A stretch of 64,000 nt of DNA, from assembly GCF_010692725.1 (NCBI RefSeq), contig NZ_JAAFZB010000096.1:372001-436000 (forward strand). Direction: 5' to 3'. This document shows positions 935 to 13,310 of this stretch, one piece after another. The first letter of the stretch is position 1; every line of letters starts with the position of its first letter. The stretch comes from Flavihumibacter soli. GTDB taxonomy: Bacteria > Bacteroidota > Bacteroidia > Sphingobacteriales > Sphingobacteriaceae. A program made the translations under genes and the position numbers. The notes beneath the pieces are model-generated. The model searched no databases, was not told the origin of the DNA, and was given only the letters and a program-made list of their open reading frames with translations.

Positions 935-1136
935 ATGTCACTCTGAATGCATTGGAATTGTCACTCTGAGCAGCCTGTCCCGATCCATCGGGAGAGTCGA
1001 AGAGCGACCGCTGGGAAGTTCAGTAAACTGATAACAAGAACCTGCCCAGGCAAATGTCACTCTGAGCGAAGTCGAAGAGCGACTGCTGGCAATCTTTTGA
1101 CAATTTCCCGGGGCTGCCCATCCTTCGACTCCGCTC
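935..1136. repeat. Dispersed TGTCACTCTGAGC...GTCGAAGAGCG repeats
   Basis: Several copies of a short dispersed repeat lie here: about 938-950, 958-1009 (with an inserted GATCCATCGGGA hairpin) and 1056-1084. An opposite-strand copy at 1121-1136 is cut by the IS110 element and continues at 2329. The word TCACTCTGAGCAG also appears near 690. A frame open across 947-1225 only translates these repeats and is not a gene. Confidence 0.75.
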
Positions 1137-1305
1137 CTTTAGATTTGTTATTGGCTAAATTTAAAATGAGAAAGGAAGCAAAAGTGAACTATGACAGCCG
1201 CTCCGAGTTTAGACTCAGCTCCTGATGAAGACTTTTGCCTCCCTTTTCATCATGAACTCAAATAGAAATTCGGGTTAGAGACCCATTATCAAGGAGTTGA
1301 GTTAA
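1137..1305 (+). ncRNA. Predicted bridge RNA of the IS110 element
   Basis: The left end folds into three parts. A 5' hairpin pairs TTTAG (1138-1142) with CTAAA (1155-1159). The target-binding loop is closed by GCAAAAGT (1178-1185) with ACTTTTGC (1231-1238). It holds CCGCTC (1198-1203), hairpin GAGT-TTAG-ACTC (1205-1216) and TCCTGA (1220-1225). CCGCTC equals the left target half (1131-1136), and TCCTGA is the reverse complement of the right half TCAGGA (2327-2332). The donor-binding loop is closed by AACTCAA (1255-1261) with TTGAGTT (1297-1303). It holds ATAGAAAT (1262-1269), hairpin GGGT-TAGAG-ACCC (1272-1284) and AAGGA (1291-1295). ATAGAAAT equals the element's right end at 2320-2327, and AAGGA is complementary to the core plus left end (TC+CTT). 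The layout follows the published IS621 bridge RNA; exact transcript ends are inferred. Confidence 0.8.
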
Positions 1306-1345
1306 ATGATGAATTTCTCATTTCGTTTTCCCTAATAACAAATTT

Positions 1346-2323
1346 ATGAAAAATGTGATTATTGGTATCGACATCAGTAGCAGGACTTTGGACATCTGTA
1401 TTCACAATTATCCTGCTATCGAACATCAGGTTATTGAAAATGATATTAAAGCGATTCGGTCATTCTTTAGGAAGTACGCCAAAGATGATCTGGTAGTCGC
1501 TATGGAAAACACAGGCCGCTATAATTGGAATTTGTTTGAAGTGTTGCCCAGCTTTAATTTCAAAGTATATGTAATCTCTCCTCTCCACTTGAAAAAGAGT
1601 TTAGGGCTGATACGAGGAAAGAATGACCAAATTGATGCCTCACGTATTTGCTCATTCATTGAAAGAAATCAGGCAGACATTAGTCCGTGGAAACCCACTC
1701 CAGTTGAGATAAAAAAGCTAAAAGTATTACTGACAGAGCGGAATTCGAGGATAAAAATGCAAAGACAATTGCTTCGGCAGCAACAGGACTATAAGCTGAT
1801 GAAGTCTATTTCTTTCCAAAAGGAACTTAGTAAACTGAATAAAAAGTTATTAGAAACCGTTGATCTCCAGGTTAAAAACGTAGAAGCTCAAATTGAAAAA
1901 ACCATTCAAGCCGATGAGTCGCTTACAGACCAAGCCCGATTAATCAGGTCCGTTCCCGGTGTAGGTAAAGTAGTTTCCTGGATGATGATTGCCAAAACAG
2001 AAGGCTTTACGATGATCAATAACCCCCGGAAAATGGCTTGTTACTGTGGGGTGGTGCCCTTTGATCATCAATCAGGCACATCTATCAGACAGAGACCAAG
2101 GGTCTCCATATACGCCGACAAAACCATGAAGAGCACACTCCATTTAGCTGCCATGAGCGCCATCCGATTGGACAATGACTTAAGAATGTACTACCGAAGA
2201 AAAATTGAAGAGGGAAAAAATAAAATGAGTGTCTTAAATGCCGTCAGAAACAAAATCATTCACCGAATATTTGCGGTCATTAAAAACCAGACCTTGTATA
2301 AAACGGACTTGGCTTTGTCATAG
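1346..2323 (+). CDS. IS110-family transposase (DEDD recombinase)
   Basis: This 325-residue protein has the two IS110 domains: an N-terminal RuvC-like DEDD domain (about 1-160) and a C-terminal Transposase_20 domain with the catalytic serine (about 195-285). Visible motifs are GIDISSRTLD with the first Asp, AMENTGRYNW with the Glu, KNDQIDASRI with the DxxD pair, a coiled linker at 130-190, then SVPGVGKV and YCGVVPFDHQSGTS. The length is normal and nothing is broken, so the element may be active. The start ATG at 1346 lies just after the bridge-RNA region. The stop codon TAG (2321-2323) falls inside the left donor sequence at the element's right end. In this family the enzyme uses the bridge RNA to join donor and target. 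Confidence 0.93.
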   Translation: MKNVIIGIDISSRTLDICIHNYPAIEHQVIENDIKAIRSFFRKYAKDDLVVAMENTGRYNWNLFEVLPSFNFKVYVISPLHLKKSLGLIRGKNDQIDASRICSFIERNQADISPWKPTPVEIKKLKVLLTERNSRIKMQRQLLRQQQDYKLMKSISFQKELSKLNKKLLETVDLQVKNVEAQIEKTIQADESLTDQARLIRSVPGVGKVVSWMMIAKTEGFTMINNPRKMACYCGVVPFDHQSGTSIRQRPRVSIYADKTMKSTLHLAAMSAIRLDNDLRMYYRRKIEEGKNKMSVLNAVRNKIIHRIFAVIKNQTLYKTDLALS

Positions 2324-2343
2324 AAATCAGGATGACAGACACT

Positions 2344-12624: not shown

Positions 12625-13310
12625 GCCCCGTAGGGGCTAAAGGTCGGTAGAAAGGAATCGATGTTTTAATCCATTGCCCTGTAGGGGCAAAACATTATTG
12701 CAGTTCTTTAAAAACATAGGTGTCGTCATATTTAACCTGAAAGTTTTCGAGGAAATCTTTGTACTCTTCTCTGAATGTCTTCCGGGAATGATGCGCCTGC
12801 TGTTGAACAATGTATTTTGTTACCGCGGGGATCTGGGATCTCGAATAGGAGAAAGCACCATATCCCTCCTGCCATCTGAATGTCGATGGACTTAATTTTT
12901 GCGTGTTAATCCATACGGATGAATCTCCCTTAATCATTCTCATCAGGTCAGACAGCGACTGATGAGGACGGAAACCAAAGAAACAATGCAGATGATCAGG
13001 CATGCTATTAATTGCAATCATTTTGTGGCCATTGTTTTGGACGATGCTCGTAATATATTGATGAAGACGTTCCTGCCACTCTTGTGTGATAAGAGCATTG
13101 CGAAATTTAACAGCGAAGATGGTGTGGATATGAATCTGGGTATAGGTATTGGCCATATTCAATAATTACATCATGTCATTAAATGGTATTAACAATATAA
13201 TAATTTTCTCCATGACGAGATCAGGGTCTTTTCGGAAATGCAAGGTTATGCCCCTACAGGGCATTGGACTCTTGCTGCTTATTTCTACCAACCTTCTGCC
13301 CCTACGGAGC
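12625..13310 (-). mobile_element. REP/RAYT module: IS200-like transposase with flanking palindromes (block 2)
   Basis: The transposase gene is bounded by palindromes at 12625-12637 and 12676-12688 on its 3' side and at 13250-13262 and 13298-13310 on its 5' side. Blocks 1 and 3 have the same order of palindromes without the gene. All palindromes are the 13-bp GCCCC-TAC-GGGGC type with small changes. This is the typical setting of a REP-associated tyrosine transposase. Confidence 0.75.
12695..13162 (-). CDS. REP-associated tyrosine transposase (IS200/IS605 TnpA-like)
   Basis: The 155-residue Y1 HUH transposase has the HUH motif in NSMPDHLHCFFGF and the catalytic Tyr in VTKYIVQQQAHHS, with WQEGYGAFSYS between them. 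The length is normal and the frame is intact. These enzymes cut and rejoin single-stranded DNA at hairpins. The palindromes on both sides are the likely substrates. Start can be Met1 or Met3 (MANTYTQ). The last codons (YDDTYVFKELQ) are repeated as remnants in blocks 1 and 3. Confidence 0.9.
   Translation of the reverse strand: MNMANTYTQIHIHTIFAVKFRNALITQEWQERLHQYITSIVQNNGHKMIAINSMPDHLHCFFGFRPHQSLSDLMRMIKGDSSVWINTQKLSPSTFRWQEGYGAFSYSRSQIPAVTKYIVQQQAHHSRKTFREEYKDFLENFQVKYDDTYVFKELQ

Follow-up and report, generated by a model that had tools for sequence, protein, structure and literature searches.

An insertion sequence of the IS110 group, located on the + strand of the window (the entire 64,000-nucleotide stretch of Flavihumibacter soli DNA under analysis), retains its gene and both ends intact and very probably inserts by bridge-RNA guidance, its expression and activity being presumed from sequence. 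The circle assigned to it spans 1137-2328, and the core dinucleotide TC is found at both 1135-1136 and 2327-2328. The IS110/IS621 bridge-RNA system was published in 2024; the element is thus of a known kind and provides another example of it. The bridge-RNA interpretation offered in an earlier note on this DNA is well supported, and the RNA itself would presumably be made and active.

The anatomy of the element is clear. The left end (1137-1345, +, 209 nt) begins with CTTTAGATTTG, a terminus conserved in close relatives, and is followed by the intact frame of a 325-residue recombinase (1346-2323, +). The right end, which also constitutes the left donor, reads ATAGAAA plus core TC (2320-2328, +) and overlaps the stop codon at 2321-2323, such that only 5 nt remain after the stop within the element. 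The left target flank CCGCTC (1131-1136, +) ends in core TC and belongs to CTTCGACTCCGCTC, an arm of a dispersed repeat. On the other side, core and right target together read TCAGGAT by direct sequence reading (2327-2333, +), and the target of the element would be CTCCGCTCAGGAT. The element is present once in its genome, so there is no second insertion of it for comparison. The neighboring VIT1-family gene occurs in 8 genomes of the genus, counting the window's, out of 20 examined. Starting 19 bp past the right end, positions 2347-2438 consist of a tandem repeat with the 7-bp unit ACCTGAT (13.1 copies, 80% matches).

The recombinase harbors a DEDD RuvC-like domain (PF01548) and a Tnp domain with the conserved serine (PF02371) according to Pfam, and it scores 176.2 bits against the NCBIfam model NF033542, "IS110 family RNA-guided transposase" (cut-off 140). 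Residues 6-315 align to the solved IS621 (8wt6) and ISCro4 (9t56) proteins. IS621 employs D11, E60, D102, D105, and S241 in its active site (PMC11208158); on the basis of the alignment and a 2-residue numbering offset, these would correspond to D9, E54, D94, D97, and S243, which are invariant in six aligned sequences (the window's and those of five relatives). A long left end, a short right end, and an RNA upstream of the gene are all features of the IS110 group, and all three are found here. The characteristic of the IS1111 group, an RNA downstream of the gene, is not found, as the RNA covariance-model match (1163-1326) lies upstream and 5 nt follow the stop codon. At the Rfam gathering threshold the window yields tRNA only and no bridge-RNA family. 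Residues 133-289, encoded within 1346-2320, also give a below-cut-off match to a TIGR-Tas endonuclease model (33.6 bits, cut-off 100); a TIGR-Tas paper mentions IS110 41 times (PMC12045711).

Four guide segments had been proposed in the left end, and direct sequence reading confirms each at the position claimed. The left target guide (1196-1203, +) contains CCGCTC at 1198-1203, identical to the flank 1131-1136, and is mismatched at its positions 7 and 8, for a total of 6/8. The right target guide (1219-1225, +) contains TCCTGA at 1220-1225, the reverse complement of TCAGGA at 2327-2332; C1219 is mismatched with T2333, leaving 6/7. The left donor guide ATAGAAAT (1262-1269, +) is identical to the right end at 2320-2327, and the right donor guide AAGGA (1291-1295, +) is the reverse complement of TCCTT, that is, core TC plus CTT of the left end (1137-1139). 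The next base, G1296 (+), is complementary to C1134 of the target and would act as the donor-loop handshake base. AAGGA by itself is unremarkable and occurs again at 1172. When 1148-1345 (198 nt) was shuffled 20,000 times with dinucleotides preserved, no shuffle contained all four guide words in any order; 10,619 contained none of them, 8,304 one, 1,054 two, and 23 three.

The guides are presented by two stem-loops (all features on the + strand). Both closing stems described in the earlier note exist and are longer than claimed. In the target-binding loop, 1174-1185 pairs with 1231-1242, with 11 of 12 pairs standard; in the donor-binding loop, the arms within 1247-1261 and 1297-1312 pair as 1247-1252/1307-1312 and 1255-1261/1297-1303, with 13 of 13 standard. 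Apical hairpins are placed by the model-fitted RNA alignment at 1205-1216 in the target loop and, as GGG/CCC, at 1272-1284 in the donor loop. In the minimum-energy structure a terminal helix, P1 (1164-1173 with 1314-1323), encloses both loops to form a three-way junction. The fold of 1155-1335 has an energy of -47.9 kcal/mol versus a shuffled mean of -34.28 (z = -3.26), a value equaled by 1 of 200 shuffles. A stable 5′ hairpin before the target stem is absent in the window's RNA (0.0 kcal/mol), and weak ones occur in relatives L054 (-4.4 kcal/mol) and L053 (-2.8 kcal/mol).

Conserved helices, the absence of which in relatives' left ends was to count against the proposal, were found. When 73 left-end RNAs (49 distinct) are fitted to the model, standard pairs fill 90.0% of pair cells versus 60.0% after shuffling, in an alignment that is fitted to the structure and composed of related sequences, both of which favor a high pairing score. 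Two-sided changes occur in 40 of 42 pairs (shuffled mean 35.3; 40 reached by 4 of 500 shuffles), and the covariation score is 0.753 versus 0.220 for shuffled columns and at most 0.179 for columns slid by 1 to 3. From an unfitted alignment of 11 sequences, RNAalifold recovers the stems of both loops, in which 13 of 26 pairs are two-sided in at least one sequence, but not the terminal helix. This helix is out of register in several rows of the plain alignment and was therefore retested by comparing the energies of own and swapped arms, which were placed with the model but without use of its pairs. Own arms pair more stably than swapped arms overall (-7.08 versus -3.28 kcal/mol, n = 47), in the close group (-9.34 versus -7.25 kcal/mol, n = 13), and in the other relatives (-6.22 versus -3.27 kcal/mol, n = 34), in each case with 0 of 20,000 permutations reaching the observed value; the own pairing ranks first in only 17 of 47 rows.

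Relatives were gathered by protein search, and an RNA covariance model, R1, was then built from 11 left ends. The close relatives comprise 21 loci including the window's copy, at ~48-68% identity to the window's protein, some of which are copies within one genome. Each of their left ends starts with CTTTAGAYTTG, and 20 of 20 right ends finish with CATAGAAAT. When first run on 57 loci plus the window, R1 left 14 loci unmatched at E 0.01 (L007, L012, L016, L018, and L020-L029), whose transposases all have an identity of about 30-37%. Six weak matches (28-34 bits) lay on the strand opposite to the true RNAs, so weak matches are not taken as proof. A later run was given the window and 74 of 109 loci and made 73 hits; the 35 left out are duplicate records of the same places, R1-unmatched loci, the weak match L030, and the partial match L076. 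R1 has matches in 11 of 248 and 15 of 299 genomes (searched with different limits and including known elements), and some elements, for example those of G1087, G1119, G1154, and G160, were chosen by RNA alone. Scanning viral contigs with the transposase gave no confirmed relative; phage records contain 4 transposase matches at 25-27% identity, and 8 plasmid records have matches at 33-38% identity.

In L089 (genome G118), a whole bridge RNA (1476-1750, 156.8 bits) lies in a truncated left end that continues, by eye, into about seven transposase codons and then into other sequence; no transposase match was found across the 3,165-bp locus, and its left flank, CTTTCGACTCCGCTC, falls in the repeat class to which the window's site belongs. 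Lutibacter contigs carry pairs of bridge RNAs in the same orientation, 1,422 bp apart (L032, 1743-1907 and 3165-3329; L033, 2816-2980 and 4238-4402). The two contigs have right-flank sequence in common and may therefore be one place seen twice.

The central expectation of guidance is that insertion sites follow changes in the target guides, and among the relatives they do so on both sides (0 of 100,000 permutations), as the earlier note had anticipated. From the 73 RNA-model hits, 11 with no recognized left terminus were excluded from the flank tests, and the remaining 62 gave 34 distinct guide pairs, with a left flank for 33 and a right flank for 26. Flanks were delimited by the element's own ends, independently of the target guides. 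Acceptance of a right end required at least 7 of 8 bases matching the element's own donor guide, a C after them, and a distance of more than 1,150 bp to the left end; the "right core TC" is thus partly set by this rule. L013 stays in the counts, its left terminus by eye probably being misplaced.

With elements taken as independent although they are related, the left guide matches its own flank at 5.57/8 versus 2.91/8 for swapped flanks (n = 33) and the right guide at 6.56/7 versus 3.55/7 (n = 26), each with 0 of 100,000 permutations. Within the close group and with core positions omitted, the values are 3.82/6 versus 2.08/6 on the left (n = 13) and 4.35/5 versus 2.49/5 on the right (n = 12), again with 0 of 100,000. 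The right match is 1.0, 1.0, 0.98, 0.98, 0.86, 0.94, and 0.81 over positions 1-7 and drops to 0.12 at position 8; the left match is 0.76-0.91 at positions 1-5, 0.44-0.50 at 6-8, and 0.36 at 9, reaching background by 10. The shift controls are flat on the right at offsets 1-5 and on the left at 2 and 4; left offsets 1, 3, and 5 were reached by 112, 4,793, and 8,761 of 100,000 permutations, respectively. The left guide covaries with the bottom strand and the right guide with the top strand. Weak left matches (0-4/8) are those of L009, L095, L006, L087, L046/L047, L039, L013, and L054; in L009, L039, and L013 the guide or end was, by eye, likely set at least one base off. Weak right matches are those of Lutibacter (4/7) and L004 (5/7). 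Distant elements at other sites also match, with L019 at 10/10 on the left and 8/8 on the right and L040 and L067 at 8/8 on the left. Different guides thus fit different insertion sites in other Bacteroidota relatives, in keeping with the idea put forward for this element.

Covariation extends to the donor side. Near the right end, 24 of 30 elements contain a complete copy of their own donor guide plus the core C, and partial copies occur in L005 (8/9), in L089, L103, and L087 (7), and in L095 and L100 (6). Among the 8 elements with a guide other than ATAGAAAT, the right end has changed along with the guide in 6, namely as ATAGTAAT (L067, L068), ATAACAAT (L010, L014), ATAGATAT (L040), and TTAGAATT (L019); L087 and L100, which have non-standard donor guides, show no correspondingly changed right end.

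In the handshake test, which covers the donor-loop side, 23 of 33 elements have a Watson-Crick pair between the base that follows the right donor guide and the one that precedes the target core, against 8.2 after shuffling (0 of 20,000). At core position 1, the base of the right donor guide pairs with that of the left core in 27 of 33 elements, against 17.6 after shuffling (0 of 20,000), and the next handshake base gives a weak signal (10 of 33 versus 7.0 shuffled, p = 0.017). Across the wider group, the left core takes the forms TC, AC, GC, and CC, and accepted right ends have C after the guide-matched T. L004, L005, L040, L046, L047, and L068 combine a left core base other than T (AC, GC, or CC) with a right end TC, so that C alone seems common to donor and target in these elements, among others. 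In the published mechanism, the DNA is cut past the core and the right guides form new pairs with the incoming strand (PMC11208158); the core and handshake pairing pattern observed here fits this mechanism.

The predicted circle junction resembles a Bacteroidota promoter, for which the consensus is TTTG at -33 and TAnnTTTG at -7 (PMC2483708), with the -7 box likewise given in PMC9723704. In the joined circle, a -33-like CTTG (2308-2311, +) would have its TTG end 20 nt before the -7 box TAGATTTG (TAnnTTTG; 1140-1147, +). The TTG lies 20 nt ahead of the left-terminus TAG in 30 of 30 distinct but non-independent junctions. The left part of this spacing is set by the pattern used to find termini and the junctions are related, so the evidence lies in TTG keeping a fixed position within the right end. 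Over the 30 junctions, the -33 box reads TTTG in 15, CTTG in 13 (the window's included), and GTTG in 2. The -7 box is exactly TAnnTTTG in 21, and both boxes are exact in 13, the window's junction, with CTTG, not being among these.

The site of insertion belongs to a family of host repeats. A partner copy of the target repeat, CGACTTCGCTCAGAGTGACA, stands inverted at 1055-1074 (-), 51 bp ahead of CGACT at the insertion site. Searching the genome for the site class CGACTNCGCTCAGNNTGACA gave 8 matches with no more than 1 mismatch (7 exact), including the inverted copy at 1055-1074 and excluding the interrupted site, versus 0 for a reversed-pattern control. Corresponding repeats number 92 in genome G1087 and 34 in G591 (control 0) and are often, by eye, inverted pairs ~83-118 bp apart. 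IS621 also inserts at REP elements (PMC11208160). A Y1_Tnp gene for a transposase of the REP-associated type is found at 12800-13144 (-), surrounded by several palindromic repeats of the TGCCCCGTAGGGGC type. This transposase was considered as the driver of the IS110 target repeat and set aside, as the repeat around its gene is different.

The elements of G591 and G1087 are related and use partly different sites. They are 85.2% identical overall, and their left ends differ at 10 of ~225 places, three adjacent ones of which fall in the right target guide. In G591, the guide ATTTCGA is found in five copies, at TCGAAAT (3) and TCGGAAT (2, one G-U pair). In G1087, the guide ATCCTGA is likewise found in five copies, at TCAGGAT (3) and TCGGAAT (2, one G-U pair and one mismatch). 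In a comparison of this small size, five copies per genome, 3 of 5 sites in each agree with the element's right guide at every one of the 7 positions. One left flank in G1087, TTCCTTCGTC, fits its own guide at just 6/8. Both kinds of site are available in both genomes: by hand-copied counts, the repeats CGTTCCTCNNNATGACA carry AGG in 30 of 92 (G1087) and 6 of 34 (G591), GAA in 13 of 92 and 9 of 34, and GGA in 26 of 92 and 12 of 34.

On the preferred reading, excision would join the right end to the left end as a circle of 1137-2328, and the junction would form a Bacteroidota-like promoter (CTTG ... TAGATTTG, TTG-N20) driving an RNA of ~170 nt from the left end. This RNA would adopt a three-way junction in which the terminal helix holds the target loop and the donor loop. 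The target loop would pair with the dispersed host repeat (...CTCCGC-TC-AGGAT...) and the donor loop with the joined ends (ATAGAAA-TC-CTTT), and the DEDD/Ser recombinase would cut after the core and swap strands with the help of the handshake bases.

It is very improbable that the recombinase instead reads the conserved host repeat itself and that the left end matches the flanks only as a relic of target capture or of common descent. The sites of most close relatives do share TGAC at right-flank positions 7-10, and part of each match is common to all elements, as the swapped means of 2.91/8 and 3.55/7 indicate for related elements under statistics that use no tree. Yet the own matches beat all permutations, in the close group as well, and they extend over positions 1 to ~9 on the left and 1-7 on the right but no farther, which leaves the shared GACA outside. 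Moreover, distant members at other sites (L019, L040, and L067) match too, and a single covarying loop matches one strand with one of its sides and the other strand with the other. Just as improbable is a left end without a guide role whose RNA controls transposase expression as a leader or antisense RNA, as in ISPpu9. Small RNAs regulating the ISPpu9 transposase have been published, and an RNA directly upstream of the gene could additionally regulate it, but regulation alone does not predict that two internal loops covary with the flanks and the right end.

A different matter is the present state of this copy, which is possibly, though rather doubtfully, dead or fading while the RNA logic holds for the family; such a state is compatible with guidance as the explanation of the family. 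Its single copy in the genome, the mismatched bases of its target guides (position 7 of the right one, 7-8 of the left), a -33 box of CTTG rather than TTTG, and the G118 relative in which a whole RNA sits in a truncated left end all point in this direction. Against it stand the intact reading frame, the active-site residues, both ends, and all guides, and bridge-RNA guidance by an element that may still be active is retained as the preferred reading.

Among known systems, IS621 (IS110 group, Escherichia coli) is similar in recombinase domains, active-site residues, left-end RNA, the order of target loop before donor loop, guide strand polarity, handshake bases, and insertion at REP-type repeats, and it has a promoter at the circle junction, where one is predicted here (PMC11208160, PMC11208158). 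There are several differences. The core is TC here and CT in IS621, and the right target guide covaries over 7 nt here versus 4. IS621 has a 5′ stem-loop where the window's RNA has the terminal helix and no stable 5′ hairpin. The predicted junction promoter is Bacteroidota-like rather than sigma-70, and, unlike in IS621, the stop codon lies 5 bp from the right end and is overlapped by the donor. Likeness to ISCro4 (structure 9t56), known here by its database name, consists in protein sequence similarity over residues 6-315. The seekRNA of IS1111/IS110 elements (ISEc21 and others) is likewise non-coding and names the target, and it lies upstream in the IS110 type; IS1111 members usually have the RNA downstream and identifiable subterminal inverted repeats, whereas the RNA is upstream in the window's element (PMC11187229). 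A bridge RNA is predicted in 85.7% of IS110s (PMC11208160), and such an RNA is therefore expected here.

The terminal helix, handshake base 1296, the possible junction promoter, and the dispersed repeat at the site extend the earlier note. The terminal helix, the 7-nt right guide, the Bacteroidota-like junction promoter, and the tracking of host repeats may mark a variant. Among the papers listed in literature searches, covered by title and opening of the abstract, there was no description of this Bacteroidota group and no match for bridge RNA, Flavobacterium, and IS110 together. The balance tips slightly toward a separate Bacteroidota bridge-RNA lineage, characterized by a closed three-way junction lacking the 5′ stem-loop, a right guide of 7 nt, a junction promoter of Bacteroidota type, a core in which C alone is fixed, and a right donor guide that follows the left core base. 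In such a lineage, dispersed inverted repeats of the host would be tracked by point changes in the guide loop, so that guides would be reprogrammed in nature.

Among the RNA-guided enzymes that rearrange DNA, bridge recombinases form a recent class, and the Bacteroidota group provides natural cases in which guide, site, and handshake base change together. The group suggests a compact, closed-end RNA with a longer right guide, which is of interest for tool building, as well as a promoter suited to Bacteroidota.
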